The translations under genes were made by a program, and so were the position numbers. DNA of 64,000 nt, taken from Bryoerythrophyllum caledonicum (taxonomy: Eukaryota > Streptophyta > Bryopsida > Pottiales > Pottiaceae). This document shows, piece by piece, positions 11,423 to 64,000 of this stretch. Where the stretch lies: positions 36,506,199-36,570,198 of the forward strand of contig OZ020516.1 of assembly GCA_963971425.1 (NCBI GenBank), in the 5' to 3' direction. The notes beneath the pieces were generated by a model that was not told where the DNA came from, did no database searches, and was given only the letters and a program-made list of their open reading frames with translations. Position 1 is the stretch's first letter, and the number at the start of each line of letters is the position of its first letter.

Positions 11423-11689
11423 TGTCGTGTAGAGAGTCTTTGCTTCAGGAAAACGCAGGGTTCTTGGCTGCACTTAGTTTAGAGAGGGAAAGGGAGAATA
11501 TGGAACATATAATTTTGTGTTCAAGCCCATATAAACTCATAAGTCCTCATTTAGCATACGAGAAAGGCCTTCAATCTTCAACTTGTATAATAAAACTCGA
11601 TGTACATATAATAAGACATGATGCAGATGTCTTGTAGAACTTGTCTCCCAAAAACTTAACTCAAAACATTAAATATCCTTAATCTAAAT

Positions 11690-11965
11690 CAAGCCTTAAT
11701 TAAACTTTGATTAAATTAACTAATTTCGCATAATAATAATGAATTAATACTTAAGATAATTAAATTTAAATAATATGATTAACCTTAATTAATCCACTTA
11801 ATCTTAGTTAAGCTAATTAATTACAATTAGACTAGTTAATCTTACTTAACACAATTAACCTTGATTAAGATAATTAATTCCCTAATTAACCACAATCCCA
11901 CATACCCTTACCCTTACATACCCTAACCACTTCATACCCTTCTCCTATATACCCTTACTCCCTTT
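11690..11965. repeat. Low-complexity TTAATTAA / ATACCCTTA segment in LTR 1
   Basis: About 200 bp are made mostly of TTAATTAA-like words, followed by several copies of ATACCCTTA-like words (11908-11965) that resemble degenerate plant telomere repeat. A second TATA-like string, TATATAG, lies on the minus strand near 11945-11951. The segment recurs at +8610 steps in each LTR. Confidence 0.6.
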
Positions 11966-12830
11966 GAAATCATTTCTCTAACCTCTCATTAAGTACAAAC
12001 CGAACTCAAACTCTCTTTTAAGCTCTTGATTAACCTTATAATTCAAAATACCACTACGGTTTCATACAAACTCGGAATGAGTCGTGCTATAGCTACTTGA
12101 AAAGCCACTAAAATACACCACACACACACCAAATTTCACCTCCAAAAACCCATCTGGCCAGCCGCTATGTGCAATCAAAGTTACTTCTTATAAAAACTCA
12201 AATCAGCTGACCCCTCTTCTTTCAAACTAGTGCTATGACTTCACAAAAGCTCGAAATAGAGCATAAGATAGCTCTTTGGAAAGCTATTTACAGTGTACAA
12301 ACACTCACCAAAGATGTCATTTAGATATACTTTGTACAACTTGCTACAAGGCTTCAAACCTACTGCTCATGAAAACATGGGGCAGCAGACCCCCTTGTGT
12401 TCGACAAGGCGCCGTTCACTCATACTTTCAGCTCTAAGACCGAGTGATAGCTTCATAGAGAGCTAACAACAAGGGCTACAACATACTCAAAATTCAAAAC
12501 AAACTAAAACAAACACAACCCGAGAGAGCCCCCGCAGTCCAGCCCCTCCTTGGTAAGGAAGAACCCAACCCCCAAAACGGGGAAAGGAGCCAATCACAAC
12601 TAACCTCAGCCCATTCAAAGGCCACATGGGCATCTTAAACCCCATTGGTTGCCCAAATTCTCCCCCTTATCAACTCTTATCATCCCCCTATCCTTTCTAT
12701 CCTTTGTATTTTTAAATACTAACTACCTGGTCATCAATCTAAAGACCGGGTTTCTTCAACAACAACAACTAACTACATATATATTAAGAAAAATAACAAC
12801 AAATGGTCTCAACTTCAGCCCCTAGATGGA

Positions 12831-13262
12831 TTAAACATGTAAAAAGTCAAGAATCTCACGAAGAACAGCAGCAATGTAACTTGATCGCCTTTCACTACCC
12901 AAGTGTCTGAGCGGGCCTTGAAGCCAAAGACGGTGACCAAGGTCATTGGACAAGCGGGTTACCATTTGACCTTCGTTAGTGTTTTGAAAACACCCTTCAA
13001 ACACCACTTGATGGCCTTCGATAAGCACATCTCCAACCTCCAAGACGATTACTAAAGTTCTTGCCTCCGGTTGTAAACTTCTTAAACTTGTCAAAGGAAC
13101 TTGTTGAGGATCAAAAGCGGTACGTGGTTGAACACGACGCTCAGAAGGCCCTGCTTCCTCTCGCTCACGCCGCCTTGATGTCGATGGTTGAGAAAGTTGA
13201 ATTAGATCATCCGGTGAGTGAGCTAAAGGAAACTCCCAATCATCAGGGTCTTGAGAAGCCAT
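12831..13262 (-). CDS. LTR-encoded 143-aa open frame, unit 1
   Basis: An open frame of 143 codons lying wholly inside the LTR on the same strand as gag and pol, starting 603 nt from the LTR's transcriptional 5' end. A TATAAAAGG box lies 83 nt before its ATG. The first 50 residues are polar and rich in Ser, Arg, Glu and Pro; the rest looks foldable, with RTLVIVLEVGDVLIEGHQ and a C-terminal helix-like ILDFLHV. No cysteine motif, signal peptide or known domain was recognised. Depending on which TATA box is used it would lie in U3 (read near the 3' end of the genomic RNA) or at the start of the leader. It could be a chance frame, but its length in a long LTR is notable. Confidence 0.45.
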   Translation of the reverse strand: MASQDPDDWEFPLAHSPDDLIQLSQPSTSRRREREEAGPSERRVQPRTAFDPQQVPLTSLRSLQPEARTLVIVLEVGDVLIEGHQVVFEGCFQNTNEGQMVTRLSNDLGHRLWLQGPLRHLGSERRSSYIAAVLREILDFLHV

Positions 13263-13344
13263 ACTATCAACCTATAGAAACTAAGAAGAAACAATCCAAA
13301 CTAATAATGACCTGAAGTAATGCATAAGGCACGGCAACCATCTA

Positions 13345-13353
13345 CCTTTTATA
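13345..13353 (-). promoter_or_regulatory. TATA box in the LTR
   Basis: TATAAAAGG on the minus strand is the best TATA match in the LTR. Start of transcription would be expected about 30 nt further (near 13315-13320). The same box is at 21955-21963, 30565-30573, 39175-39183, 47785-47793 and 56395-56403. Weaker candidates are TATATAT near 12777-12785 and TATATAG near 11945-11951. Confidence 0.5.
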
Positions 13354-13509
13354 TGTTTTTCGATAACTTCATCAAGAAGCTTGCCTTTCCTAACATTAAC
13401 TCAATGGCATTTCTTTAATTGGAAACGGCTAAGCAAATTTAAGTAGCCATAGATGCCTTTCCATCTAAAAGATGGTCTACAGTAAAGTCAGATTAAGAAA
13501 ACAAACGAC

Positions 13510-13704
13510 TTATCTGTAGCAGTATAAGACTATTGCAGGCTCGATGATAATCGCCAAGTTGCAGACTTGGTTGGCTGTTAGAGCCCGTTTGTTATCCGCC
13601 GACTGATTCCGAGTTCGAGTCTCATTGAACTCGTTGAACTGTTCGGGCGGCTGCGGCTTGGCACTTGCTAGTGAGAGCAGGAAAATAAGCAGCCAACTGG
13701 CCAC
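13510..13704 (-). CDS. Short LTR open frame with hydrophobic N-terminus (64 aa)
   Basis: The N-terminus MASWLLIFLLSLASAKP looks like a secretion signal peptide; the rest is polar and ends with another hydrophobic patch. It lies upstream of the TATAAAAGG box and antisense to a tRNA-like stretch (13561-13625), so a chance frame is quite possible. Copies are at 22120-22314, 30730-30924, 39340-39534, 47950-48144 and 56560-56754; residue 62 is Cys in the first four and Tyr in the last two. Confidence 0.2.
   Translation of the reverse strand: MASWLLIFLLSLASAKPQPPEQFNEFNETRTRNQSADNKRALTANQVCNLAIIIEPAIVLYCYR
13561..13625 (+). repeat. Degenerate tRNA-like (possibly tRNA-Asn-derived) stretch in LTR
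   Basis: On the + strand a D-arm-like TTGGCTGTTAGAGC is followed by an anticodon-loop-like TTGTTAT (GTT would be Asn) and a T-loop-like GAGTTCGAGTCTC, at roughly tRNA spacing. The stems do not pair well, so it is not a functional tRNA as read. It recurs in each LTR. Confidence 0.3.
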
Positions 13705-13868
13705 CTACCTACCCCTGAGCTAGAGACAAGAGATGTAGTACATCCAAGCTAGGCTAACAAGCTCCAAATGTTCCCACATTGAATTAAACTGTAGGTCACT
13801 CTACGACCACACTTTTTGTATCTATATTATCTTTTTACATAGAGTAGTAATTTACAACACGACATACA

Positions 13869-13876
13869 CCCCCTCC
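13869..13876 (-). other. Polypurine tract of unit 1
   Basis: GGAGGGGG on the minus strand, four bases before the LTR end at 13864 and about 30 nt after the pol stop. This is where plus-strand DNA synthesis of the element is primed. Copies are at 22479-22486, 31089-31096, 39699-39706, 48309-48316 and 56919-56926. Confidence 0.8.
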
Positions 13877-13906
13877 AAACCTGCACATCTTTCGTGATGT
13901 GCCAAT

Positions 13907-16900
13907 CTAGTTTGGCTCTCCAACGTCGTCATCTTCATCAGTGTTGATTTCTTGATCAGCATCCTCTAGCTGATCTTCATCACTTGTTTCTGATATCTCA
14001 TTGTCTTCAAAGCTAAGCTCACCGTGACGCCTCTTGAATGCTTTGATTCTTTTTCCTGCCACCGGTATTCTTAGTTGAGTGCCATCCAACTCACGTAATG
14101 AATACGTGCCGTTTTCATGGACTTCCAGTACCACATAAGGTCCAAACCACCTTCGTGCAAATTTTCTAACAGTACTGTGCTGATGCTCCAAGCTACTGTC
14201 AAACACCAATACCCAATCCCCAGCTTGAATTGGTTTTGTTCTCAATCTATGAGTTTTGTCAAATCTTTCTTTGTTTTTGAGCCTTGCTGCCTTTAGCCTT
14301 TCTAATGCAGTTCTATGATTTTCAGGTAACCGCTCAAGTTGCTCTATCCGGAGCTCCAATAACCTCTCCCTTGATATTCCATCATTCCAATCTAAAAACG
14401 TCCATGTCGGTATTGAAGTCTCTGTTGGCATGATGGGTTTTTGGCCTAACATCAGCTCTGTTGGCATATAGCCTGTAACTGTGCTATGAGTGGTTCTATC
14501 AGCCCATAATGCAAATGGTAATAGTTTAGGCCACTGTTTTGGTCTCCCTTTACATGCTTTGACCAGAGCGTTAATGATGGGAGGATGCCCTCTCTCACTC
14601 TTACCATTTGCCTCAGGATTGTAAGCTGTTGTAAGTCTTAACTTTACTCCATATCTTTTGAAGAACTCGACAGCTTCGGCAGCATTTAACTCACCACGAT
14701 CTGCTCTCACCCTGCCGATACTACCATATCTGCTGAAAATGTCTTCAAGTATAAATCTACAAACTTCTTCTGTAGATTTGGTCCTCAAAGCCCTTCCTTC
14801 AACAAAGTTAGAGAGCTCTTCTCTAGCCAAAACAAGGTATTTCATGCCCCATAATCCCAATGGCATTGCAACCAAGTCAATCACCCACTGAAAATGTACT
14901 GCAAGTGGATAAGTAGGATGTAACTCATCTCTGTGTCTTACTTTTGATTGTAGTTGACACTCAGTGCAAGAACCAACAAATTCCTCCACATCTTTATACA
15001 AGCCCTTCCACCAATATCGTTCCTTGATCTTGTAATATGTGGCCCAAACTCCTCTATGCCCTGCCCAAAGAGTATCGTGAAACTCTTTAAGAACCTGACT
15101 CTTCAACTCTAAATCGTCAACTACTCTCAAAGGCACTCCATCTTCTCTTTTTGGCCTTTTCCACAATAAACCATCCCTCAGAAGATAATTATAGGCCTGG
15201 TGTCTAATATCTTTAAACGTTTTGTCTGACCAGCCTTGTTGCCTTCTCAAAGTGCTCAAATAGATGCCAATGTCTTTTAATTTATCTTGATATAGCTCTT
15301 CTTTGAATAGATAAATGTCACCACTTGCGTCTGCTCCATCAACTGCCAAAACATAGCCATAATCTTCATCGTCATCTTCCTCACCAATTTCTTGTGCCTT
15401 CATCTCGTCTTCACACATATACCTGGCTCTGGATAGCATATCAGCTACTGAGTTTTTCTTGCCAGTAATATGAACTAACACAGGATTTAGTGATCGAATG
15501 TAGGCTATCCACCGTAGCATAGCAATGTCTGGAGTAGAACAATTGGCAACCATACCAATTAATGGCAAACAGTCAGTCTCCAAGATGACATTTGCACCTA
15601 TCAAGTAGTTTCTATCTGCTTTTAGTGCCGTTAGTGCCCCTAAAAGTTCCCTCTTCACTTGTGGATATGCTCTTTGACGCTCTGTAAGAATCCTTGCTCC
15701 AAATCTTATTGCAAATCTTCTTCCTTCTGCATCGTCTTGGCCAATAGCCCAACCTGTAGCAATTGGGCTAGTATCAACTATCACAATTATTGGTCTGCCA
15801 CTATCATATTGAACTTGTCTTAGAATTGGTGAAGACTTCAAAATGTCCTTTAATCCTTCCATTGCTAGCTCTTGATCATGCCCCCATCTAAACTTCACTC
15901 CCTTTTTCAAGAGTTTGTATAGTGGATCAGCCACATGAGCAAAATGTAGTACCCAAATCTGATAAAACACACATGCGCCTAAAAACCTCCTTACTTCGGT
16001 AATGCTACTGCATGCTTTCATTCTAGCAATAGCATCTACTTTCTCAGGGTTAGGTTTTCTCCCATATCTTCCGCATAAGTGCCCAACTACCACAATTTCT
16101 CCGACACCAAACTTAGACTTGTCAATGGACAATGTTAAATCCACCTCTTCAAGCCTTCCCAGAATCATCTCCACATCTGCAATATGGTCTATTACAAATC
16201 TCCTGCAACCATCTTCATCCTTAGATAAGTCTCTTGCCTCTTCCTTGCAGCCCTTGATCGGTATGTCATCAACAAAAGGTATTGTCTTCTCAGGTACAAA
16301 GTCTTTTAAAATGCGGTTCATGGCATTTTGCATGTGAGCCACTGAGTTTGTGGCACCTTGAGGCAATGTGCACATCCTTACAAGTCCCAATGGAGTCTTC
16401 ATGGTTGTCAAATCCCTACTTTCATTTGCAAGTTGGAATTGATCATAACCTGAATATAAGTCTCCAATAGAATAGATGGCATGTCCTGCAAATGCTTCAG
16501 CCACTTCATCCACGACCGGTCCAGACCCTTTGTTTCTGATAGTAACCTTATTAGCCGGCTGCATGTCTTGTATGAATCTTAATGCCCCTGATTTCTTTGG
16601 CACTGTAAACCAACGGTTGGAGTATGGAGCCATAGAAGGTTCAAGTATGCCCATTCGTACTTTTTCCTTCAGTAGATTCACCAACTTTGGCAACAAAGCC
16701 CTTGGCACTGGTATTGGCTTCAAATCCCATGGGACATGTGGCACTGTAAAAATAACCATTGGTGCAATTACATTAGGTTGCACACATCCAATTTCATCTG
16801 GTGATGACGCAAATGCTTTGCCATGTTTAGAGAGCATGTCTCGGAATCTCTTCTTCTCTGGTTCATTCAAGAATTCACCCCCTCCAATCTCTAGCTTGCC

Positions 16901-17467
16901 AATTGTCTCATTAGTGAACTTGTGCCCAATCTTCCTTGATTCTCTAAGTCCTGGTTCCTTCTCCGCCTGTTTAATGTGATCATCAGTGTCAGGTGGCAAT
17001 TGTGTTGCTACGGGCTTCACTTTCTTTGCCACTGTCTTGTACTTGGTGTTAACATCAGCTTCAAAGTATGCACCATGGCTCTCAACCAATCCAATAGTTG
17101 TTGCTGATTCTAAAAGCTCGTCAAAGAGTTCCCTTGAATGAACCTCAACGACAACATTACTAGGCGTTGGCTTTTGGTCAAGTACACCTTCTAAAATCGT
17201 AACAATGTCATCAGAAAATCCTTCTTCTTCTATCACTCCAACAATATTCTCGTCATCCAATACCACACCCATTTTTTTGAATTTTTCTCCAATTTTCTTA
17301 ACTGCCTTCTTTCCTACTGAATCCAAATCTTCAATCCTCACAAAAGTTACAAGGCTATCTTCTGTAACATTTAAAACCACACGACCTCTACTATTTACAT
17401 TGGGGAATGAAACTGTTGAGAAACCCCTTGCACCCGCGGACCCCCATCTTCCACGTGTGCAATCTAG
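13907..17467 (-). CDS. pol: Gypsy-type Pol (reverse transcriptase, RNase H, integrase), unit 1
   Basis: The frame is entered by -1 frameshift from gag at 17467; 29 codons precede the GTG at 17380, from which residues are numbered (1157 to the stop). Reverse transcriptase: motif A SIGDLYSGYDQF with D307, motif B LPQGATNS (339-346), motif C FVDD (369-372). RNase H: D536, E578, D603 and D647. Integrase: zinc finger H768, H775, C805, C808; catalytic D835, D894 and E929. The acidic C-terminal tail (about 1121-1157) has no chromodomain. RT-RNase H-IN order is that of Ty3/Gypsy. The integrase wording (YLVLAREELSNFVEGRALR) reminds me of elements of agaric fungi and non-seed plants, from memory only. 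Copy-specific residues: E882 (G in all other copies), I534, M977, T616, A901, D109, R383. The frame is intact with all catalytic residues present. Confidence 0.92.
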   Translation of the reverse strand, partial: LDCTRGRWGSAGARGFSTVSFPNVNSRGRVVLNVTEDSLVTFVRIEDLDSVGKKAVKKIGEKFKKMGVVLDDENIVGVIEEEGFSDDIVTILEGVLDQKPTPSNVVVEVHSRELFDELLESATTIGLVESHGAYFEADVNTKYKTVAKKVKPVATQLPPDTDDHIKQAEKEPGLRESRKIGHKFTNETIGKLEIGGGEFLNEPEKKRFRDMLSKHGKAFASSPDEIGCVQPNVIAPMVIFTVPHVPWDLKPIPVPRALLPKLVNLLKEKVRMGILEPSMAPYSNRWFTVPKKSGALRFIQDMQPANKVTIRNKGSGPVVDEVAEAFAGHAIYSIGDLYSGYDQFQLANESRDLTTMKTPLGLVRMCTLPQGATNSVAHMQNAMNRILKDFVPEKTIPFVDDIPIKGCKEEARDLSKDEDGCRRFVIDHIADVEMILGRLEEVDLTLSIDKSKFGVGEIVVVGHLCGRYGRKPNPEKVDAIARMKACSSITEVRRFLGACVFYQIWVLHFAHVADPLYKLLKKGVKFRWGHDQELAMEGLKDILKSSPILRQVQYDSGRPIIVIVDTSPIATGWAIGQDDAEGRRFAIRFGARILTERQRAYPQVKRELLGALTALKADRNYLIGANVILETDCLPLIGMVANCSTPDIAMLRWIAYIRSLNPVLVHITGKKNSVADMLSRARYMCEDEMKAQEIGEEDDDEDYGYVLAVDGADASGDIYLFKEELYQDKLKDIGIYLSTLRRQQGWSDKTFKDIRHQAYNYLLRDGLLWKRPKREDGVPLRVVDDLELKSQVLKEFHDTLWAGHRGVWATYYKIKERYWWKGLYKDVEEFVGSCTECQLQSKVRHRDELHPTYPLAVHFQWVIDLVAMPLGLWGMKYLVLAREELSNFVEGRALRTKSTEEVCRFILEDIFSRYGSIGRVRADRGELNAAEAVEFFKRYGVKLRLTTAYNPEANGKSERGHPPIINALVKACKGRPKQWPKLLPFALWADRTTHSTVTGYMPTELMLGQKPIMPTETSIPTWTFLDWNDGISRERLLELRIEQLERLPENHRTALERLKAARLKNKERFDKTHRLRTKPIQAGDWVLVFDSSLEHQHSTVRKFARRWFGPYVVLEVHENGTYSLRELDGTQLRIPVAGKRIKAFKRRHGELSFEDNEISETSDEDQLEDADQEINTDEDDDVGEPN

Positions 17468-17473
17468 AAACCC
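17428..17473 (-). promoter_or_regulatory. -1 ribosomal frameshift signal at the gag/pol junction, unit 1
   Basis: In the gag frame the last codons read CAG GGT TTC TAG, so GGGTTTC (17467-17473) is a canonical X_XXY_YYZ heptamer directly before the stop. Four nt later a stem-loop starts: TTGCAC-A-CGTGGA, loop AGATGGGGG, TCCGCG-G-GTGCAA (17428-17462), that is 12 base pairs interrupted by one A-G mismatch and including one G-T pair. Pol is in the -1 frame and is closed upstream by a stop at 17483-17485, so the frames overlap by only about 19 nt around the heptamer. Predicted Gag-Pol length is 818 + 29 + 1157 = 2004 residues. Confidence 0.85.
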
Positions 17474-19920
17474 TGAAAGTTTTCAGAGTCATCGATCATG
17501 GGTGCTTCTCTAAGTTGGGCTCTATGTCTCTCGTGATTTGGCTTCACAGTGAGAAACTGCACTGCTTTCTTTCCATCACAACTTCGAATTCTAGCATAGT
17601 GTGAGCCATCATCCAATACCTTAGTCCCCATCCTTGTAGCAGTGATATATGGTTGTCCCAAAATAATCGGATACGTACCATTGTTCTGCACAAAGAAGTT
17701 TTGTTCCACTTCAACATCTCCAATCTTGGTCTTCACAGCTGGACATGCACCACAAAGACCCCCTCTCTCGTTATTCGCTGCTCGCAAGACCCATCCATGG
17801 TTGATGTCAATGGGCCACTTACCCTTTTCATAGATCTTCCTTGAGATTATGTTAATCTCAGATCCATGATCAACTAGAGCCAATATAGACTCATCCAAGT
17901 CTCCAAGCTTCACACGTGTCTCTGTTGTAGCTCTGGCCCAGAATGGTTGAGTGTAAGTTCGCACTGTTTCATCCTCATGTTCTCCCCAAAACTCTCCACC
18001 CATACAACACGTCATTGCAATCTCTTCAGGAGAAGCGTCAGCCTTTGCCTCCTCTGGTTTCTTCGCAATGAATTCTAAGGAAAACATTTGCAAGACTTCA
18101 TCCTCCATTTCTGCATCCAAAAGATTTGAAACATCTTCCACATCCTTCTCCCTTGAACTTGTAGAGTCACACATCATGACAAATACTTGCCCAATCTCAT
18201 CTTCCTCATCTTTGGTCACGTGAGTATCTATCGCCTTTGCCATCACTGTCTCTGCTGTCATTTGTCTCTTTCTCTTGATAACATCTATTATGAGCTCGTG
18301 AAAGTCTTTCTTGGCGATGCCAAAAGCTTCTCTCAAAGTGAATTCAATCTTTGCATCAAGAATCCTCTCTTCAAGAATGCCCTTCATATCAATTGAAGAT
18401 TCAATATCGGATTGAAGTTTGTAGGCTGGGACTTTACCTCTTCCCTTTGCAGAATCTTCTTTCTCCTTTCCCTTCTTACTGCTCATCCTTTCCTCCCATT
18501 TGTCCTTTGGTAGTGGTGCATTCCCTGGATGTAAGTTAGAAGGTCCAGCATCTTGCTTCTGGCGAGTGTGATTTGCTGGCCCTTGTGCTGGAGTGGTATC
18601 CTTGTTGCCTGAAGGCTTCCTCTTACTTACTGGCTCCGTTGTCTCTTCTTCTTCATCTCTGCCACGTTTGGCTTCGACCAACGCATCGCTAGGCAAATCG
18701 ACCCCTTGCTCATTATCCAGATATGCCCTGATGGTGATCGCGTCTACCGGATCATCCCATCCAGTAAGCTGTCTAATAGCTTGTGCTCCTCTGACCATCA
18801 GCTCTGTGGGTACATGAGATAAGATTTTCACCTTACTCTGCTCGACCTCAATGCTATAGGTTTCTGCTTCCTTGCCTTTTGAAGTACTGCCATTTTTCAA
18901 CCGCTCATCCATCAACTTCTTCATGCCCCCTCTTCCAAAGTTGGTATTCAAAACTTCTTCCGTCGAAGCATCTCTAATCCTTCCTTCTTTGAAAGAAATA
19001 ATGCCGTTCTTCATAGCATCTGTATACGACGTACAATCCCCACGCTTGTGGCTTGGATCATCACACCAAATGCACCTCATGACAAAATCTTTTTGTCCTC
19101 CACTTGGTTGTGAACCACTCGTTTTGGTATTCCTCATAAGCGTACTCATCTCCACCTTCAATTCCTTGATGCCCTTCATAAGCTCTTGAATTGTAGCATC
19201 ATCCACCGTTTTGCCCTTTGAGAAACCTGGAGGAGTAGAAGTAGGCTGTGTTGATGTTGAAGCTGTGTTTTCTACTATCGGTAAAACCTCTGTCCTTGCT
19301 CCAAGTCCTCTTGCCTTCACACGTTGTTGTTTGGCAATAATGCTCACCCCTTCTTCCAATCTCCTCCAATTAGTGGTAAACCCACTTTCGGTAGTACTAT
19401 CTGAGAGGAAGAGAAGCAATCTGTCTTCCAATGCTTCATCCGCAGCTTGTAGAAAAAGCTCAAACTTCTTCACCTCCAGAAGCCGCTTCTCAACCAAAGG
19501 TAACTGTCCAAACTTCTTCTCAAACTCTCTGAGTAATTCGTTAGGCCCCATGTGTTTGCCAGGCCGTTGTTCCACCCAATCAAGAAACCCTCTCTTGGAC
19601 ATCCTCTCCGTATCTTCATCAAAATACTCATCTCTGAGTCTTTCTTCAAATACAGCCCATGAGGGCACATCTATACCCTCATGCAACTGTCTGATCCTCT
19701 CCTTGATCTCAGGTACAACTGCAAGGTGAAAAGTCTCTATCATCCTTTCTCCAGCTACTTGATAAATCTCCATCTCGCACCCATAGACCCTCAAAAACTT
19801 CGAGACATTCTTGCCATCAAACCTCCTTAATTTGTTGATGACAGTCTTCAAAGCCTTCGTAGCTCCTTGTCCCGATGTATTAGCAGCTTGTTGGCCCATA
19901 AGCATCTGCATGGCCCTCAT
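17464..19920 (-). CDS. gag: Gag-protease polyprotein, unit 1
   Basis: An 818-residue frame. A capsid-like retrotransposon Gag region occupies about residues 25-200 (LRRFDG, SWAVFEERLRDEYF). A CCHC zinc knuckle follows at residues 283-296 (C-X2-C-X4-H-X4-C). A Lys/Glu-rich linker (about 415-500) leads to a helical segment at 510-555 (ILDAKIEFTLREAFGI), which I loosely recall from fungal-type Gypsy elements. A retroviral-type aspartic protease (about 670-790) carries ALVDHGSEINI with D684 and the flap/ILG-like PIILGQPYI near 751. The active site is D-H-G where D-S/T-G is usual. Protease is thus made with Gag and not only by frameshift. The start is the first ATG after an in-frame TAG (19939-19941). 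Copy-specific: K73, V431. Confidence 0.88.
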   Translation of the reverse strand: MRAMQMLMGQQAANTSGQGATKALKTVINKLRRFDGKNVSKFLRVYGCEMEIYQVAGERMIETFHLAVVPEIKERIRQLHEGIDVPSWAVFEERLRDEYFDEDTERMSKRGFLDWVEQRPGKHMGPNELLREFEKKFGQLPLVEKRLLEVKKFELFLQAADEALEDRLLLFLSDSTTESGFTTNWRRLEEGVSIIAKQQRVKARGLGARTEVLPIVENTASTSTQPTSTPPGFSKGKTVDDATIQELMKGIKELKVEMSTLMRNTKTSGSQPSGGQKDFVMRCIWCDDPSHKRGDCTSYTDAMKNGIISFKEGRIRDASTEEVLNTNFGRGGMKKLMDERLKNGSTSKGKEAETYSIEVEQSKVKILSHVPTELMVRGAQAIRQLTGWDDPVDAITIRAYLDNEQGVDLPSDALVEAKRGRDEEEETTEPVSKRKPSGNKDTTPAQGPANHTRQKQDAGPSNLHPGNAPLPKDKWEERMSSKKGKEKEDSAKGRGKVPAYKLQSDIESSIDMKGILEERILDAKIEFTLREAFGIAKKDFHELIIDVIKRKRQMTAETVMAKAIDTHVTKDEEDEIGQVFVMMCDSTSSREKDVEDVSNLLDAEMEDEVLQMFSLEFIAKKPEEAKADASPEEIAMTCCMGGEFWGEHEDETVRTYTQPFWARATTETRVKLGDLDESILALVDHGSEINIISRKIYEKGKWPIDINHGWVLRAANNERGGLCGACPAVKTKIGDVEVEQNFFVQNNGTYPIILGQPYITATRMGTKVLDDGSHYARIRSCDGKKAVQFLTVKPNHERHRAQLREAPMIDDSENFQGF

Positions 19921-19980
19921 AAACTCCTCCGCAAGATTCTAACCACCTCCACCACCTCGAGTCCCTCCAGAATCATCCAT
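19921..19980 (-). other. In-frame upstream ATG and TAG before gag, unit 1
   Basis: An ATG at 19980 opens a frame identical in phase to gag: 13 codons, Gly-rich, then TAG (19939-19941), six more codons, then the gag ATG at 19920. All six units carry the same TAG. Either gag starts at 19920 and this is a small upstream frame, or the founder copy lost the original start region to a stop mutation. Confidence 0.6.
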
Positions 19981-20012
19981 CTTTCCCTAACCAAACCAAA
20001 TGCCTTGAAGCT

Positions 20013-20030
20013 CTCTCAGTGGAAGCACCA
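20013..20030 (-). other. Primer-binding site, unit 1
   Basis: Two bases inside the LTR 2 border the minus strand reads TGGTGCTTCCACTGAGAG. The leading TGG would pair with the CCA end of a tRNA whose 3' end is GGAAGCACCA. It is not the initiator-Met site (TGGTATCAGAG). I cannot name the primer tRNA. Copies are at 28623-28640, 37233-37250, 45843-45860, 54453-54470 and 63063-63080. Confidence 0.65.
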
Positions 20031-20032
20031 AA

Positions 20033-22474: not shown

Positions 22475-22516
22475 TACACCCCCTCCAAACCTGCACATCT
22501 TTCGTGATGTGCCAAT

Positions 22517-26077: not shown

Positions 26078-26083
26078 AAACCC
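26038..26083 (-). promoter_or_regulatory. -1 frameshift signal, unit 2
   Basis: Heptamer GGGTTTC at 26077-26083 and stem-loop 26038-26072, same sequence as unit 1. Confidence 0.85.
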
Positions 26084-28530: not shown

Positions 28531-28642
28531 AAACTCCTCCGCAAGATTCTAACCACCTCCACCACCTCGAGTCCCTCCAGAATCATCCATCTTTCCCTAA
28601 CCAAACCAAATGCCTTGAAGCTCTCTCAGTGGAAGCACCAAA

Positions 28643-31084: not shown

Positions 31085-31126
31085 TACACCCCCTCCAAAC
31101 CTGCACATCTTTCGTGATGTGCCAAT

Positions 31127-39694: not shown

Positions 39695-39736
39695 TACACC
39701 CCCTCCAAACCTGCACATCTTTCGTGATGTGCCAAT

Positions 39737-45750: not shown

Positions 45751-45862
45751 AAACTCCTCCGCAAGATTCTAACCACCTCCACCACCTCGAGTCCCTCCAG
45801 AATCATCCATCTTTCCCTAACCAAACCAAATGCCTTGAAGCTCTCTCAGTGGAAGCACCAAA

Positions 45863-48304: not shown

Positions 48305-48346
48305 TACACCCCCTCCAAACCTGCACATCTTTCGTGATGTGCCAAT

Positions 48347-51907: not shown

Positions 51908-51913
51908 AAACCC
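51868..51913 (-). promoter_or_regulatory. -1 frameshift signal, unit 5 (stem variant)
   Basis: Heptamer unchanged at 51907-51913. Position 51878 is A where units 1-4 have G, so the minus strand reads TCTGCG in the 3' stem arm. A G-C pair becomes G-U, and the stem is kept. Confidence 0.85.
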
Positions 51914-54360: not shown

Positions 54361-54472
54361 AAACTCCTCCGCAAGATTCTAACCACCTCCACCACCTCGA
54401 GTCCCTCCAGAATCATCCATCTTTCCCTAACCAAACCAAATGCCTTGAAGCTCTCTCAGTGGAAGCACCAAA

Positions 54473-56914
54473 TGTCGTGTAGAGAGTCTTTGCTTCAGGA
54501 AAACGCAGGGTTCTTGGCTGCACTTAGTTTAGAGAGGGAAAGGGAGAATATGGAACATATAATTTTGTGTTCAAGCCCATATAAACTCATAAGTCCTCAT
54601 TTAGCATACGAGAAAGGCCTTCAATCTTCAACTTGTATAATAAAACTCGATGTACATATAATAAGACATGATGCAGATGTCTTGTAGAACTTGTCTCCCA
54701 AAAACTTAACTCAAAACATTAAATATCCTTAATCTAAATCAAGCCTTAATTAAACTTTGATTAAATTAACTAATTTCGCATAATAATAATGAATTAATAC
54801 TTAAGATAATTAAATTTAAATAATATGATTAACCTTAATTAATCCACTTAATCTTAGTTAAGCTAATTAATTACAATTAGACTAGTTAATCTTACTTAAC
54901 ACAATTAACCTTGATTAAGATAATTAATTCCCTAATTAACCACAATCCCACATACCCTTACCCTTACATACCCTAACCACTTCATACCCTTCTCCTATAT
55001 ACCCTTACTCCCTTTGAAATCATTTCTCTAACCTCTCATTAAGTACAAACCGAACTCAAACTCTCTTTTAAGCTCTTGATTAACCTTATAATTCAAAATA
55101 CCACTACGGTTTCATACAAACTCGGAATGAGTCGTGCTATAGCTACTTGAAAAGCCACTAAAATACACCACACACACACCAAATTTCACCTCCAAAAACC
55201 CATCTGGCCAGCCGCTATGTGCAATCAAAGTTACTTCTTATAAAAACTCAAATCAGCTGACCCCTCTTCTTTCAAACTAGTGCTATGACTTCACAAAAGC
55301 TCGAAATAGAGCATAAGATAGCTCTTTGGAAAGCTATTTACAGTGTACAAACACTCACCAAAGATGTCATTTAGATATACTTTGTACAACTTGCTACAAG
55401 GCTTCAAACCTACTGCTCATGAAAACATGGGGCAGCAGACCCCCTTGTGTTCGACAAGGCGCCGTTCACTCATACTTTCAGCTCTAAGACCGAGTGATAG
55501 CTTCATAGAGAGCTAACAACAAGGGCTACAACATACTCAAAATTCAAAACAAACTAAAACAAACACAACCCGAGAGAGCCCCCGCAGTCCAGCCCCTCCT
55601 TGGTAAGGAAGAACCCAACCCCCAAAACGGGGAAAGGAGCCAATCACAACTAACCTCAGCCCATTCAAAGGCCACATGGGCATCTTAAACCCCATTGGTT
55701 GCCCAAATTCTCCCCCTTATCAACTCTTATCATCCCCCTATCCTTTCTATCCTTTGTATTTTTAAATACTAACTACCTGGTCATCAATCTAAAGACCGGG
55801 TTTCTTCAACAACAACAACTAACTACATATATATTAAGAAAAATAACAACAAATGGTCTCAACTTCAGCCCCTAGATGGATTAAACATGTAAAAAGTCAA
55901 GAATCTCACGAAGAACAGCAGCAATGTAACTTGATCGCCTTTCACTACCCAAGTGTCTGAGCGGGCCTTGAAGCCAAAGACGGTGACCAAGGTCATTGGA
56001 CAAGCGGGTTACCATTTGACCTTCGTTAGTGTTTTGAAAACACCCTTCAAACACCACTTGATGGCCTTCGATAAGCACATCTCCAACCTCCAAGACGATT
56101 ACTAAAGTTCTTGCCTCCGGTTGTAAACTTCTTAAACTTGTCAAAGGAACTTGTTGAGGATCAAAAGCGGTACGTGGTTGAACACGACGCTCAGAAGGCC
56201 CTGCTTCCTCTCGCTCACGCCGCCTTGATGTCGATGGTTGAGAAAGTTGAATTAGATCATCCGGTGAGTGAGCTAAAGGAAACTCCCAATCATCAGGGTC
56301 TTGAGAAGCCATACTATCAACCTATAGAAACTAAGAAGAAACAATCCAAACTAATAATGACCTGAAGTAATGCATAAGGCACGGCAACCATCTACCTTTT
56401 ATATGTTTTTCGATAACTTCATCAAGAAGCTTGCCTTTCCTAACATTAACTCAATGGCATTTCTTTAATTGGAAACGGCTAAGCAAATTTAAGTAGCCAT
56501 AGATGCCTTTCCATCTAAAAGATGGTCTACAGTAAAGTCAGATTAAGAAAACAAACGACTTATCTGTAGTAGTATAAGACTATTGCAGGCTCGATGATAA
56601 TCGCCAAGTTGCAGACTTGGTTGGCTGTTAGAGCCCGTTTGTTATCCGCCGACTGATTCCGAGTTCGAGTCTCATTGAACTCGTTGAACTGTTCGGGCGG
56701 CTGCGGCTTGGCACTTGCTAGTGAGAGCAGGAAAATAAGCAGCCAACTGGCCACCTACCTACCCCTGAGCTAGAGACAAGAGATGTAGTACATCCAAGCT
56801 AGGCTAACAAGCTCCAAATGTTCCCACATTGAATTAAACTGTAGGTCACTCTACGACCACACTTTTTGTATCTATATTATCTTTTTACATAGAGTAGTAA
56901 TTTACAACACGACA
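54473..56914 (-). repeat. LTR 6 (shared by units 5 and 6)
   Basis: 2442 bp, with the CTGTAGTAGTAT variant near 56570 shared with LTR 5. Confidence 0.93.
55881..56312 (-). CDS. LTR-encoded 143-aa open frame, unit 6
   Basis: Sixth copy, protein identical to the others; TATAAAAGG at 56395-56403. Confidence 0.45.
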   Translation of the reverse strand: MASQDPDDWEFPLAHSPDDLIQLSQPSTSRRREREEAGPSERRVQPRTAFDPQQVPLTSLRSLQPEARTLVIVLEVGDVLIEGHQVVFEGCFQNTNEGQMVTRLSNDLGHRLWLQGPLRHLGSERRSSYIAAVLREILDFLHV

Positions 56915-56956
56915 TACACCCCCTCCAAACCTGCACATCTTTCGTGATGTGCCAAT

Positions 56957-59900
56957 CTAGTTTGGCTCTCCAACGTCGTCATCTTCATCAGTGTTGATTT
57001 CTTGATCAGCATCCTCTAGCTGATCTTCATCACTTGTTTCTGATATCTCATTGTCTTCAAAGCTAAGCTCACCGTGACGCCTCTTGAATGCTTTGATTCT
57101 TTTTCCTGCCACCGGTATTCTTAGTTGAGTGCCATCCAACTCACGTAATGAATACGTGCCGTTTTCATGGACTTCCAGTACCACATAAGGTCCAAACCAC
57201 CTTCGTGCAAATTTTCTAACAGTACTGTGCTGATGCTCCAAGCTACTGTCAAACACCAATACCCAATCCCCAGCTTGAATTGGTTTTGTTCTCAATCTAT
57301 GAGTTTTGTCAAATCTTTCTTTGTTTTTGAGCCTTGCTGCCTTTAGCCTTTCTAATGCAGTTCTATGATTTTCAGGTAACCGCTCAAGTTGCTCTATCCG
57401 GAGCTCCAATAACCTCTCCCTTGATATTCCATCATTCCAATCTAAAAACGTCCATGTCGGTATTGAAGTCTCTGTTGGCATGATGGGTTTTTGGCCTAAC
57501 TTCAGCTCTGTTGGCATATAGCCTGTAACTGTGCTATGAGTGGTTCTATCAGCCCATAATGCAAATGGTAATAGTTTAGGCCACTGTTTTGGTCTCCCTT
57601 TACATGCTTTGACCAGAGCGTTAATGATGGGAGGATGCCCTCTCTCACTCTTACCATTTGCCTCAGGATTGTAAGCTGTTGTAAGTCTTAACTTTACTCC
57701 ATATCTTTTGAAGAACTCGACAGCTTCGGTAGCATTTAACTCACCACGATCTGCTCTCACCCTGCCGATACTACCATATCTGCTGAAAATGTCTTCAAGT
57801 ATAAATCTACAAACTCCTTCTGTAGATTTGGTCCTCAAAGCCCTTCCTTCAACAAAGTTAGAGAGCTCTTCTCTAGCCAAAACAAGGTATTTCATGCCCC
57901 ATAATCCCAATGGCATTGCAACCAAGTCAATCACCCACTGAAAATGTACTGCAAGTGGATAAGTAGGATGTAACTCATCTCTGTGTCTTACTTTTGATTG
58001 TAGTTGACACTCAGTGCAAGAACCAACAAATTCCTCCACATCTTTATACAAGCCCTTCCACCAATATCGTTCCTTGATCTTGTAATATGTGGCCCAAACT
58101 CCTCTATGCCCTGCCCAAAGAGTATCGTGAAACTCTTTAAGAACCTGACTCTTCAACTCTAAATCGTCAACTACTCTCAAAGGCACTCCATCTTCTCTTT
58201 TTGGCCTTTTCCACAATAAACCATCCCTCAGAAGATAATTATAGGCCTGGTGTCTAATATCTTTAAACGTTTTGTCTGACCAGCCTTGTTGCCTTCTCAA
58301 AGTGCTCAAATAGATGCCAATGTCTTTTAATTTATCTTGATATAGCTCTTCTTTGAATAGATAAATGTCACCACTTGCGTCTGCTCCATCAACTGCCAAA
58401 ACATAGCCATAATCTTCATCGTCATCTTCCTCACCAATTTCTTGTGCCTTCATCTCGTCTTCACACATATACCTGGCTCTGGATAGCATATCAGCTACTG
58501 AGTTTTTCTTGCCAGTAATATGAACTAACACAGGATTTAGTGATCGAATGTAGGCTATCCACCGTAGCATAGCAATGTCTGGAGCAGAACAATTGGCAAC
58601 CATACCAATTAATGGCAAACAGTCAGTCTCCAAGATGACATTTGCACCTATCAAGTAGTTTCTGTCTGCTTTTAGTGCCGTTAGTGCCCCTAAAAGTTCC
58701 CTCTTCACTTGTGGATATGCTCTTTGACGCTCTGTAAGAATCCTTGCTCCAAATCTTATTGCAAATCTTCTTCCTTCTGCATCGTCTTGGCCAATAGCCC
58801 AACCTGTAGCAATTGGGCTAGTATCAACTGTCACAATTATTGGTCTGCCACTATCATATTGAACTTGTCTTAGAATTGGTGAAGACTTCAAAATGTCCTT
58901 TAATCCTTCCATTGCTAGCTCTTGATCATGCCCCCATCTAAACTTCACTCCCTTTTTCAAGAGTTTGTATAGTGGATCAGCCACATGAGCAAAATGTAGT
59001 ACCCAAATCTGATAAAACACACATGCGCCTAAAAACCTCCTTACTTCGGTAATGCTACTGCATGCTTTCATTCTAGCAATAGCATCTACTTTCTCAGGGT
59101 TAGGTTTTCTCCCATATCTTCCGCATAAGTGCCCAACTACCACAATTTCTCCGACACCAAACTTAGACTTGTCAATGGACAATGTTAAATCCACCTCTTC
59201 AAGCCTTCCCAGAATCATCTCCACATCTGCAATATGGTCTATTACAAATCTCCTGCAACCATCTTCATCCTTAGATAAGTCTTTTGCCTCTTCCTTGCAG
59301 CCCTTGATCGGTATGTCATCAACAAAAGGTATTGTCTTCTCAGGTACAAAGTCTTTTAAAATGCGGTTCATGGCATTTTGCATGTGAGCCACTGAGTTTG
59401 TGGCACCTTGAGGCAATGTGCACATCCTTACAAGTCCCAATGGAGTCTTCATGGTTGTCAAATCCCTACTTTCATTTGCAAGTTGGAATTGATCATAACC
59501 TGAATATAAGTCTCCAATAGAATAGATGGCATGTCCTGCAAATGCTTCAGCCACTTCATCCACGACCGGTCCAGACCCTTTGTTTCTGATAGTAACCTTA
59601 TTAGCCGGCTGCATGTCTTGTATGAATCTTAATGCCCCTGATTTCTTTGGCACTGTAAACCAACGGTTGGAGTATGGAGCCATAGAAGGTTCAAGTATGC
59701 CCATTCGTACTTTTTCCTTCAGTAGATTCACCAACTTTGGCAACAAAGCCCTTGGCACTGGTATTGGCTTCAAATCCCATGGGACATGTGGCACTGTAAA
59801 AATAACCATTGGTGCAATTACATTAGGTTGCACACATCCAATTTCATCTGGTGATGACGCAAATGCTTTGCCATGTTTAGAGAGCATGTCTCGGAATCTC

Positions 59901-60517
59901 TTCTTCTCTGGTTCATTCAAGAATTCACCCCCTCCAATCTCTAGCTTGCCAATTGTCTCATTAGTGAACTTGTGCCCAATCTTCCTTGATTCTCTAAGTC
60001 CTGGTTCCTTCTCCGCCTGTTTAATGTGATCATCAGTGTCAGGTGGCAATTGTGTTGCTACGGGCTTCACTTTCTTTGCCACTGTCTTGTACTTGGTGTT
60101 AACATTAGCTTCAAAGTATGCACCATGGCTCTCAACCAATCCAATAGTTGTTGCTGATTCTAAAAGCTCGTCAAAGAGTTCCCTTGAATGAACCTCAACG
60201 ACAACATTACTAGGCGTTGGCTTTTGGTCAAGTACACCTTCTAAAATCGTAACAATGTCATCAGAAAATCCTTCTTCTTCTATCACTCCAACAATATTCT
60301 CGTCATCCAATACCACACCCATTTTTTTGAATTTTTCTCCAATTTTCTTAACTGCCTTCTTTCCTACTGAATCCAAATCTTCAATCCTCACAAAAGTTAC
60401 AAGGCTATCTTCTGTAACATTTAAAACCACACGACCTCTACTATTTACATTGGGGAATGAAACTGTTGAGAAACCCCTTGCACCCGCAGACCCCCATCTT
60501 CCACGTGTGCAATCTAG
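56957..60517 (-). CDS. pol: Gypsy-type Pol, unit 6
   Basis: Intact and identical to unit 5 in the protein except K383 in place of R383 (CTTTTGCC at 59281-59288 in place of CTCTTGCC). Confidence 0.92.
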   Translation of the reverse strand, partial: LDCTRGRWGSAGARGFSTVSFPNVNSRGRVVLNVTEDSLVTFVRIEDLDSVGKKAVKKIGEKFKKMGVVLDDENIVGVIEEEGFSDDIVTILEGVLDQKPTPSNVVVEVHSRELFDELLESATTIGLVESHGAYFEANVNTKYKTVAKKVKPVATQLPPDTDDHIKQAEKEPGLRESRKIGHKFTNETIGKLEIGGGEFLNEPEKKRFRDMLSKHGKAFASSPDEIGCVQPNVIAPMVIFTVPHVPWDLKPIPVPRALLPKLVNLLKEKVRMGILEPSMAPYSNRWFTVPKKSGALRFIQDMQPANKVTIRNKGSGPVVDEVAEAFAGHAIYSIGDLYSGYDQFQLANESRDLTTMKTPLGLVRMCTLPQGATNSVAHMQNAMNRILKDFVPEKTIPFVDDIPIKGCKEEAKDLSKDEDGCRRFVIDHIADVEMILGRLEEVDLTLSIDKSKFGVGEIVVVGHLCGRYGRKPNPEKVDAIARMKACSSITEVRRFLGACVFYQIWVLHFAHVADPLYKLLKKGVKFRWGHDQELAMEGLKDILKSSPILRQVQYDSGRPIIVTVDTSPIATGWAIGQDDAEGRRFAIRFGARILTERQRAYPQVKRELLGALTALKADRNYLIGANVILETDCLPLIGMVANCSAPDIAMLRWIAYIRSLNPVLVHITGKKNSVADMLSRARYMCEDEMKAQEIGEEDDDEDYGYVLAVDGADASGDIYLFKEELYQDKLKDIGIYLSTLRRQQGWSDKTFKDIRHQAYNYLLRDGLLWKRPKREDGVPLRVVDDLELKSQVLKEFHDTLWAGHRGVWATYYKIKERYWWKGLYKDVEEFVGSCTECQLQSKVRHRDELHPTYPLAVHFQWVIDLVAMPLGLWGMKYLVLAREELSNFVEGRALRTKSTEGVCRFILEDIFSRYGSIGRVRADRGELNATEAVEFFKRYGVKLRLTTAYNPEANGKSERGHPPIINALVKACKGRPKQWPKLLPFALWADRTTHSTVTGYMPTELKLGQKPIMPTETSIPTWTFLDWNDGISRERLLELRIEQLERLPENHRTALERLKAARLKNKERFDKTHRLRTKPIQAGDWVLVFDSSLEHQHSTVRKFARRWFGPYVVLEVHENGTYSLRELDGTQLRIPVAGKRIKAFKRRHGELSFEDNEISETSDEDQLEDADQEINTDEDDDVGEPN

Positions 60518-60523
60518 AAACCC
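60478..60523 (-). promoter_or_regulatory. -1 frameshift signal, unit 6 (stem variant)
   Basis: Heptamer at 60517-60523; the same G-to-A stem variant (60488) as unit 5, pairing retained as G-U. Confidence 0.85.
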
Positions 60524-62970
60524 TGAAAGTTTTCAGAGTCATCGATCATGGGTGCTTCTCTAAGTTGGGCTCTATGTCTCTCGTGATTTGGCTTCACAGT
60601 GAGAAACTGCACTGCTTTCTTTCCATCACAACTTCGAATTCTAGCATAGTGTGAGCCATCATCCAATACCTTAGTCCCCATCCTTGTAGCAGTGATATAT
60701 GGTTGTCCCAAAATAATCGGATACGTACCATTGTTCTGCACAAAGAAGTTTTGTTCCACTTCAACATCTCCAATCTTGGTCTTCACAGCTGGACATGCAC
60801 CACAAAGACCCCCTCTCTCGTTATTCGCTGCTCGCAAGACCCATCCATGGTTGATGTCAATGGGCCACTTACCCTTTTCATAGATCTTCCTTGAGATTAT
60901 GTTAATCTCAGATCCATGATCAACTAGAGCCAATATAGACTCATCCAAGTCTCCAAGCTTCACACGTGTCTCTGTTGTAGCTCTGGCCCAGAATGGTTGA
61001 GTGTAAGTTCGCACTGTTTCATCCTCATGTTCTCCCCAAAACTCTCCACCCATACAACACGTCATTGCAATCTCTTCAGGAGAAGCGTCAGCCTTTGCCT
61101 CCTCTGGTTTCTTCGCAATGAATTCTAAGGAAAACATTTGCAAGACTTCATCCTCCATTTCTGCATCCAAAAGATTTGAAACATCTTCCACATCCTTCTC
61201 CCTTGAACTTGTAGAGTCACACATCATGACAAATACTTGCCCAATCTCATCTTCCTCATCTTTGGTCACGTGAGTATCTATCGCCTTTGCCATCACTGTC
61301 TCTGCTGTCATTTGTCTCTTTCTCTTGATAACATCTATTATGAGCTCGTGAAAGTCTTTCTTGGCGATGCCAAAAGCTTCTCTCAAAGTGAATTCAATCT
61401 TTGCATCAAGAATCCTCTCTTCAAGAATGCCCTTCATATCAATTGAAGATTCAATATCGGATTGAAGTTTGTAGGCTGGGACTTTACCTCTTCCCTTTGC
61501 AGAATCTTCTTTCTCCTTTCCCTTCTTACTGCTCATCCTTTCCTCCCATTTGTCCTTTGGTAGTGGTGCATTCCCTGGATGTAAGTTAGAAGGTCCAGCA
61601 TCTTGCTTCTGGCGAGTGTGATTTGCTGGCCCTTGTGCTGGAGTGGTATCCTTGTTGCCTGAAGGCTTCCTCTTACTTATTGGCTCCGTTGTCTCTTCTT
61701 CTTCATCTCTGCCACGTTTGGCTTCGACCAACGCATCGCTAGGCAAATCGACCCCTTGCTCATTATCCAGATATGCCCTGATGGTGATCGCGTCTACCGG
61801 ATCATCCCATCCAGTAAGCTGTCTAATAGCTTGTGCTCCTCTGACCATCAGCTCTGTGGGTACATGAGATAAGATTTTCACCTTACTCTGCTCGACCTCA
61901 ATGCTATAGGTTTCTGCTTCCTTGCCTTTTGAAGTACTGCCATTTTTCAACCGCTCATCCATCAACTTCTTCATGCCCCCTCTTCCAAAGTTGGTATTCA
62001 AAACTTCTTCCGTCGAAGCATCTCTAATCCTTCCTTCTTTGAAAGAAATAATGCCGTTCTTCATAGCATCTGTATACGACGTACAATCCCCACGCTTGTG
62101 GCTTGGATCATCACACCAAATGCACCTCATGACAAAATCTTTTTGTCCTCCACTTGGTTGTGAACCACTCGTTTTGGTATTCCTCATAAGCGTACTCATC
62201 TCCACCTTCAATTCCTTGATGCCCTTCATAAGCTCTTGAATTGTAGCATCATCCACCGTTTTGCCCTTTGAGAAACCTGGAGGAGTAGAAGTAGGCTGTG
62301 TTGATGTTGAAGCTGTGTTTTCTACTATCGGTAAAACCTCTGTCCTTGCTCCAAGTCCTCTTGCCTTCACACGTTGTTGTTTGGCAATAATGCTCACCCC
62401 TTCTTCCAATCTCCTCCAATTAGTGGTAAACCCACTTTCGGTAGTACTATCTGAGAGGAAGAGAAGCAATCTGTCTTCCAATGCTTCATCCGCAGCTTGT
62501 AGAAAAAGCTCAAACTTCTTCACCTCCAGAAGCCGCTTCTCAACCAAAGGTAACTGTCCAAACTTCTTCTCAAACTCTCTGAGTAATTCGTTAGGCCCCA
62601 TGTGTTTGCCAGGCCGTTGTTCCACCCAATCAAGAAACCCTCTCTTGGACATCCTCTCCGTATCTTCATCAAAATACTCATCTCTGAGTCTTTCTTCAAA
62701 TACAGCCCATGAGGGCACATCTATACCCTCATGCAACTGTCTGATCCTCTCCTTGATCTCAGGTACAACTGCAAGGTGAAAAGTCTCTATCATCCTTTCT
62801 CCAGCTACTTGATAAATCTCCATCTCGCACCCATAGACCCTCAAAAACTTCGAGACATTCTTGCCATCAAACCTCCTTAATTTGTTGATGACAGTCTTCA
62901 AAGCCTTCGTAGCTCCTTGTCCCGATGTATTAGCAGCTTGTTGGCCCATAAGCATCTGCATGGCCCTCAT
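60514..62970 (-). CDS. gag: Gag-protease polyprotein, unit 6
   Basis: Intact 818-residue frame, same protein as unit 5 (I431). Confidence 0.88.
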   Translation of the reverse strand: MRAMQMLMGQQAANTSGQGATKALKTVINKLRRFDGKNVSKFLRVYGCEMEIYQVAGERMIETFHLAVVPEIKERIRQLHEGIDVPSWAVFEERLRDEYFDEDTERMSKRGFLDWVEQRPGKHMGPNELLREFEKKFGQLPLVEKRLLEVKKFELFLQAADEALEDRLLLFLSDSTTESGFTTNWRRLEEGVSIIAKQQRVKARGLGARTEVLPIVENTASTSTQPTSTPPGFSKGKTVDDATIQELMKGIKELKVEMSTLMRNTKTSGSQPSGGQKDFVMRCIWCDDPSHKRGDCTSYTDAMKNGIISFKEGRIRDASTEEVLNTNFGRGGMKKLMDERLKNGSTSKGKEAETYSIEVEQSKVKILSHVPTELMVRGAQAIRQLTGWDDPVDAITIRAYLDNEQGVDLPSDALVEAKRGRDEEEETTEPISKRKPSGNKDTTPAQGPANHTRQKQDAGPSNLHPGNAPLPKDKWEERMSSKKGKEKEDSAKGRGKVPAYKLQSDIESSIDMKGILEERILDAKIEFTLREAFGIAKKDFHELIIDVIKRKRQMTAETVMAKAIDTHVTKDEEDEIGQVFVMMCDSTSSREKDVEDVSNLLDAEMEDEVLQMFSLEFIAKKPEEAKADASPEEIAMTCCMGGEFWGEHEDETVRTYTQPFWARATTETRVKLGDLDESILALVDHGSEINIISRKIYEKGKWPIDINHGWVLRAANNERGGLCGACPAVKTKIGDVEVEQNFFVQNNGTYPIILGQPYITATRMGTKVLDDGSHYARIRSCDGKKAVQFLTVKPNHERHRAQLREAPMIDDSENFQGF

Positions 62971-63082
62971 AAACTCCTCCGCAAGATTCTAACCACCTCC
63001 ACCACCTCGAGTCCCTCCAGAATCATCCATCTTTCCCTAACCAAACCAAATGCCTTGAAGCTCTCTCAGTGGAAGCACCAAA

Positions 63083-64000
63083 TGTCGTGTAGAGAGTCTT
63101 TGCTTCAGGAAAACGCAGGGTTCTTGGCTGCACTTAGTTTAGAGAGGGAAAGGGAGAATATGGAACATATAATTTTGTGTTCAAGCCCATATAAACTCAT
63201 AAGTCCTCATTTAGCATACGAGAAAGGCCTTCAATCTTCAACTTGTATAATAAAACTCGATGTACATATAATAAGACATGATGCAGATGTCTTGTAGAAC
63301 TTGTCTCCCAAAAACTTAACTCAAAACATTAAATATCCTTAATCTAAATCAAGCCTTAATTAAACTTTGATTAAATTAACTAATTTCGCATAATAATAAT
63401 GAATTAATACTTAAGATAATTAAATTTAAATAATATGATTAACCTTAATTAATCCACTTAATCTTAGTTAAGCTAATTAATTACAATTAGACTAGTTAAT
63501 CTTACTTAACACAATTAACCTTGATTAAGATAATTAATTCCCTAATTAACCACAATCCCACATACCCTTACCCTTACATACCCTAACCACTTCATACCCT
63601 TCTCCTATATACCCTTACTCCCTTTGAAATCATTTCTCTAACCTCTCATTAAGTACAAACCGAACTCAAACTCTCTTTTAAGCTCTTGATTAACCTTATA
63701 ATTCAAAATACCACTACGGTTTCATACAAACTCGGAATGAGTCGTGCTATAGCTACTTGAAAAGCCACTAAAATACACCACACACACACCAAATTTCACC
63801 TCCAAAAACCCATTTGGCCAGCCGCTATGTGCAATCAAAGTTACTTCTTATAAAAACTCAAATCAGCTGACCCCTCTTCTTTCAAACTAGTGCTATGACT
63901 TCACAAAAGCTCGAAATAGAGCATAAGATAGCTCTTTGGAAAGCTATTTACAGTGTACAAACACTCACCAAAGATGTCATTTAGATATACTTTGTACAAC
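63083..64000 (-). repeat. LTR 7 (partial, runs off the window)
   Basis: The first 918 bp (+ strand) of the next LTR, starting TGTCGTGT. T at 63814 is shared only with LTR 2. It is the 5' LTR of unit 6. Whether another unit follows cannot be seen. Confidence 0.9.

Follow-up and report, generated by a model that had tools for sequence, protein, structure and literature searches.

The stretch of DNA analysed here, called the window throughout, comprises 64,000 nucleotides of Bryoerythrophyllum caledonicum (contig OZ020516.1; C3:36506199-36570198 in the coordinates used below), and the genome assembly searched for comparison holds 437,360,962 bp in 894 contigs. From position 11423 to its end, the window is occupied by a tandem array of a Ty3/gypsy-type retrotransposon whose units share single long terminal repeats (LTRs). 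The features of the array, in window positions, are as follows.

11419..11422, no strand: target site duplication CCGG, left copy (right copy at C3:36571723-36571726, outside the window)
11423..13864, minus strand: LTR 1, outer left
13865..20032, minus strand: internal region of unit 1
13868..13876, minus strand: putative polypurine tract adjoining the LTR, GGAGGGGGT on the element strand, read by eye
13907..17380, minus strand: pol open frame of 1157 amino acids with reverse transcriptase, RNase H, integrase zinc finger and integrase core; open in 6/6 units
17464..19920, minus strand: gag-type open frame of 818 amino acids with a DUF4100 match; open in 6/6 units
20013..20030, minus strand: candidate primer binding site with the sequence TGGTGCTTCCACTGAGAG, separated from the LTR by 2 bp, read by eye
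20033..22474, minus strand: LTR 2, shared
22475..28642, minus strand: internal region of unit 2
28643..31084, minus strand: LTR 3, shared
31085..37252, minus strand: internal region of unit 3
37253..39694, minus strand: LTR 4, shared
39695..45862, minus strand: internal region of unit 4
45863..48304, minus strand: LTR 5, shared
48305..54472, minus strand: internal region of unit 5
54473..56914, minus strand: LTR 6, shared
56915..63082, minus strand: internal region of unit 6
63083..64000, minus strand: LTR 7, outer right, cut by the window end and extending to C3:36571722

At an offset of 8610 bp, the sequence from 11423 to the window end is 99.93% identical to itself, and at the 39 other offsets tested (8590-8629) self-identity is just 25.6-28.6%. 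The repeat unit consists of a 2442-bp LTR and a 6168-bp internal region. Neighbouring units, all in the same orientation with the element on the minus strand, are joined by one 2442-bp LTR. The seventh LTR runs 1,524 bp past the window (to notional position 65524). As assembled, the whole array contains six internal regions and seven LTRs in 54,102 bp, from 11423 to notional 65524; LTRs and internal regions alternate and an LTR stands at both ends, which is the layout of a tandem LTR retrotransposon. An earlier note, made from the window alone, had described a head-to-tail array of at least six units in one orientation with one LTR between neighbours, and the assembly bears this out. The exact 8610-bp period that it reported holds in that the units carry no indels relative to each other, but the copies are not identical, differing at 19 variable columns.

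A single 4-bp target duplication, CCGG, brackets the array, whereas the inner borders are internal-LTR joins free of any duplication. The left flank ends in CTCTACCGG and the right flank begins with CCGGTAGACC; the ACCGG that had been expected directly after the last LTR is absent, the duplication being the 4-bp CCGG. Because one CCGG duplication surrounds the whole, the array represents one integration site. We are highly confident that the assembly genuinely contains this array.

The coding content assigns the element to the Ty3/gypsy type. Pfam matches in pol follow the order reverse transcriptase, RNase H, integrase (RVT_1 260-433, RT_RNaseH 526-627, Integrase_H2C2 758-811, rve 831-922), and the closest solved structure is Ty3 Gag-Pol (E 7.2e-51). 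The LTR ends, TGTCG..CGACA, are of the TG..CA type and are accompanied by a 4-bp duplication, as expected for this type. No chromodomain was found among the Pfam matches in pol down to E 1, which does not suggest a chromovirus. A motif that we take to be protease-like lies near the end of the gag-type frame. Among the 120 of 246 pol matches listed, the nearest named relatives come from the liverwort Riccia sorocarpa (70%), and identity is higher, reaching 91%, for several unnamed entries from metagenomes or genomes. The candidate primer binding site TGGTGCTTCCACTGAGAG is common to related families.

The duplications also define a target preference. A perfect 4-bp duplication was found at 10/11 loci checked, including five of the six arrays read at both ends; the exception is an array at C2:32.0 Mb, with CCGG on one side and CTGG on the other. 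A search pattern that placed no CG requirement on the flank listed 53 LTR starts of the flank type; the three bases preceding them are CGN in 51 cases and CAT in two, and the CG dinucleotide has a frequency of 2.4% in the left flank of the window. Since CGN precedes the LTR starts and the duplications are 4 bp long, the target is NCGN. Insertion occurs almost only at this sequence, which amounts to strict CpG targeting by a gypsy-type integrase that has no detected chromodomain. Bryophyte Ty3/gypsy lineages include Phygy. The available portion of PMC6911290 reports 4-bp duplications for Phygy, and for plant elements it reports duplications of this length whose centres are GC-rich; the likeness of the present element to Phygy lies in the 4-bp duplication. 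The same portion contains no mention of a CpG target. The array itself sits in a GC-rich stretch (8600-11422) that contains two open pieces, 157 and 144 amino acids long, perhaps an older repeat. About 6 kb from the array, a tRNA-Leu (TAA) gene (3471-3554, minus strand) lies within an apparent intron of a plant gene, presumably dynamin-2-like.

Tandem runs of this kind recur in the genome. A search of the whole genome for the 25 bases of the internal-to-LTR junction, allowing up to three mismatches, matched 306 places, of which 100 were listed, all exact; the reversed control gave 0 matches in the genome. When same-strand junctions spaced 7-9.5 kb apart are grouped, the 100 listed junctions form 55 runs, of which 47 are single junctions; the others are two runs of 2, one of 5, three of 6 (one of them the window array), one of 8 and one of 18. 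The start of the window family's LTR occurs at 125 places, and among the 100 listed, 47 are junctions and 53 are starts at genomic flank. Of the 30 runs that these 47 junctions form, 23 are single and three have 2 junctions, and there is one run each of 3, 4, 5 and 6. Both listings combined contain at least 13 distinct runs of two or more, at least seven of them with five or more. Six units, which the earlier note had called exceptional, are not so in this genome, where the listed junctions also include runs of 18, 8, 6, 6, 5, 5, 4 and 3.

These run counts describe evenly spaced junctions, not sequence. The arrays read as sequence are the window array, one on C15 (five units), one at C11:16.74 Mb (three) and one at C7:13.74 Mb (two, one shortened). 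Those read in part are an 18-unit array on C6 (6/19 LTRs), the array at C2:32.0 Mb (three LTRs) and one at C11:11.43 Mb (LTR ends). The 18-unit array (C6:19707660-19853628) has, as assembled, a period of 8005, LTRs of 1893 or 1886 bp and the duplication GCGG on both sides, and the six LTRs read are nearly identical. It was considered as a member of the window family and rejected: it gives no megablast match and belongs to a related family, about 68-71% identical in aligned stretches. The two families share their LTR ends, as a more sensitive search revealed.

Three more evenly spaced runs, belonging to related families and known by junction spacing only, lie at C8:15309876-15365022 (8 junctions), C2:34405690-34445722 (6) and C9:3622273-3653753 (5). 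In the two-unit array on C7 (13738992-13755193), the unit adjoining the outer LTR lacks about 3.4 kb of its internal region. Three single copies, at C6:28834056, C6:30010884 and C6:30228123, occupy separate sites with different duplications and are 3-6 bases apart; their near-identity points to recent transposition of one lineage.

Solo LTRs arise by unequal LTR recombination. Of 72 LTR starts that are CG-flanked and otherwise exact, nine are followed by a listed internal junction 3-15 kb on and 63 by none. Full LTRs with no adjoining internal region (query 1-2442 to 1-2444), which are solo LTRs, account for four of these 63 and for an additional start that has one mismatch. The remaining starts of the 63 appear solo-like, with the qualification that the listed junctions are incomplete at three mismatches and that some elements may be truncated. 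Solo-like LTRs are common and fit as reciprocal products of LTR x LTR exchange. This origin of solo LTRs is named in PMC11899658. The exchange is the same, but solo LTRs are its reciprocal or deletion product, whereas at the present locus the duplication product would have been retained and grown.

Differences between units allow the order of events in the arrays to be addressed. Over about 8610 sites, full units differ from each other at 1-13 sites in the window array, 2-11 in the C15 array and 0-3 in the array at C11:16.74 Mb, and 100 sites or more separate the units of these three arrays from all full units compared at other loci. In the window array, 12/19 variable sites are derived in at least two copies. 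Units 5 and 6 have a common block of derived sites from 2098 to 7208 and differ from each other at one site. Comparison with 14 full units, one partial unit and outer LTRs at other loci shows 17 of the 19 derived alleles in the window array only; the two present elsewhere are 2098T (C6 and C7 copies) and 6072A (C11:1757941). At sites 3029 (a transversion) and 4192, all four combinations occur among the units, indicating that units have exchanged sequence. The derived changes are mostly C>T/G>A (17/19), and 11 of these 17 stand in CHG context, compared with 13.1% of C/G positions (p 1.1e-6). This pattern suggests mutation of methylated chromosomal DNA between rounds of duplication.

The outer and inner LTRs provide a further source of evidence. 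Recombination between the right LTR of one copy and the left LTR of a second predicts an inner LTR that starts like the right outer LTR and ends like the left outer LTR. In the C15 array, G8 and A38 are derived states common to the inner LTRs and the right outer LTR, and T2308 is a derived state that the inner LTRs have in common with the left outer LTR. G1114, by contrast, is confined to all four inner LTRs, indicating that it arose after the first exchange. Derived T16 is common to the inner LTRs and the right outer LTR at C11:16.74 Mb, and the one inner LTR read at C2:32.0 Mb shares T1894 with the left outer LTR. Sharing thus runs in the predicted direction on 4/4 informative sides in three arrays. 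The outer LTRs of the window array differ at one site (732) and are uninformative on this point; the array at C11:11.43 Mb has a perfect duplication and shows no informative LTR difference in the approximately 1 kb read per LTR.

We consider it probable that the window array descends from one insertion that grew in place by repeated unequal homologous recombination. The CCGG duplication shows a single integration at C3, on this reading that of one Ty3/gypsy-type element. Its two LTRs then gathered chromosomal point mutations, which by their pattern are mostly C>T/G>A and presumably stem from deamination of methylated C. Next, sister chromatids or homologues that paired out of alignment may have recombined between a right LTR on one and a left LTR on the other; the products would be a duplication, in which a chimeric inner LTR separates two internal regions, and a reciprocal solo LTR. 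Further unequal exchange, with LTRs or whole units out of register, would have added units and shuffled variants until six were present; this step is proposed because the variant patterns are shared, nested and of the four-gamete kind. Contraction by the same route would return single elements or solo LTRs. Unequal LTR recombination had been named by the earlier note as one candidate origin, and the allele data now favour it.

Several observations weigh against growth in place. Few LTR sites are informative, these lie close to the ends of the LTR, and the polarity of column 1894 depends on a single other locus. At C11:16.74 Mb the inner LTRs match the left outer LTR at 1477 but the right at 1542; in the window array both outer LTRs carry derived T769 and inner LTRs 3 and 4 keep C; and in the 18-unit array a 7-bp deletion near the right end is common to one inner LTR and the right outer LTR. 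Site 1542, site 769 and the deletion each need later exchange, conversion or recurrent change. The chimeras indicate fusion of a right with a left LTR, in the chromosome or in complementary DNA (cDNA) alike; we place the fusion in the chromosome because mutations preceded it. The CHG excess was also sought in the C15 array and was not found there (2/9), and assembly errors at methylated sites could possibly mimic C>T changes. Moreover, the three C6 single copies, 3-6 bases apart at separate loci and 30-33 from the copy at C7:13.75 Mb, show that recent transposition can mimic array-like similarity, and loci outside the sample might be closer to the window array than those compared. Finally, both the number of units and their variants come from a single assembly.

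The alternative that survives best, and that we nevertheless regard as unlikely, is that a ready-made concatemer was inserted in one integrase event and acquired its variants by later mutation and gene conversion. Such multi-unit cDNA might derive from one-LTR circles, from template switching or from RNA that reads through an older array. The single target duplication around each array fits this explanation equally well, linear cDNAs fused by recombination would also give a right x left recombinant LTR, and the available portions of PMC11899658 and PMC7215508 keep such an origin open. However, units that arrived simultaneously should share few derived changes by subset, yet 12/19 sites are shared, and the changes mostly look like chromosomal C>T rather than reverse-transcriptase error. 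The left and right LTRs of the C15 array differed at several sites before fusion, which fresh LTRs should not, and a cDNA of 54 kb or 146 kb would lie far above normal template size.

An assembly artefact, in which a loop or mis-scaffold over the repeat inflated the number of units, appears very unlikely. Such an error is suggested by the single site separating units 5 and 6 and by the near uniformity of the 18-unit array in the 6/19 LTRs read, and exact counts would be hard to obtain from reads shorter than one or two units. Against it stand the unit-specific and nested variants, the matching duplications at both junctions to unique flank, and the many arrays of different period and family in the same assembly. 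The plain assembly loop raised in the earlier note is disfavoured on these grounds, and an exact loop is ruled out by the nested differences between units. To adjacent independent or nested insertions of the family, later trimmed, we attach almost no credence: the family has many copies and near-identical ones exist at separate loci, but the exact period, the one outer duplication and the borders, each with one LTR and neither duplication nor flank DNA, refute a plain form of this explanation, in agreement with the earlier note.

Growth in place by recombination can be set beside what is known of tandem LTR retrotransposons, a kind already described in plants. In the rice pangenome, 266 candidates were reported and two two-unit loci detailed (PMC11899658); the available text leaves open whether tandems inserted as such or arose by recombination (Morales-Diaz et al. 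2025). Those insertions resemble the present array in their alternating LTRs and internal regions, shared single LTRs, one outer duplication and gypsy bias. They differ in that the detailed rice loci have two units and that the pipeline caps the locus at 40,000 bp, which excludes arrays of 54 or 146 kb. Whereas that study is undecided on origin, the chimeric LTRs and shared derived changes seen here favour recombination. The miniature element Cassandra, a terminal-repeat retrotransposon in miniature (TRIM), forms long LTR-internal-LTR runs with single shared LTRs, with 13 LTRs and 12 internal domains as detected by polymerase chain reaction (PMC7215508). Cassandra is non-coding, however, with products of about 6 kb, in contrast to 8.6-kb units with both frames open, and in the available text its units show no differences, compared with 19 variable sites in the window array. 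Measured against this literature, the claim that six units are exceptional stands in part, for the rice loci but not for Cassandra. The available portions of PMC5750206 and PMC12368964 do not address array origin. A literature search on tandem LTR elements, conducted mostly at the level of listings, found no report of a full-length coding array of at least six units.

The runs of 6, 8 and 18 units in related families are unusually long. Within the literature searched, four features are new here: how long the arrays are, that the frames are intact, that arrays recur in several related families of a single genome, and that the order of events is readable. Long arrays with private variants let the sequence of mutation, LTR x LTR exchange and more exchange be read. 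At such loci LTR dating is unsafe, and pipelines with locus-size caps miss the arrays altogether. If reads confirm this picture, loci graded from solo LTRs through 1, 2, 3, 4, 5, 6 and 8 to 18 units would allow one to measure in this genome how satellite-like arrays are built from intact elements by recombination and at what rate they are removed by it. We tentatively suggest, as a possibility we hold with less than even confidence, that host homologous recombination acts freely on long LTRs, turning related gypsy-type insertions into copy-number-variable loci that range from a solo LTR to 18 or more units. The arrays might then be young satellites of coding retrotransposons, and bryophyte genomes prone to homologous recombination may be where LTR arrays grow into satellites.

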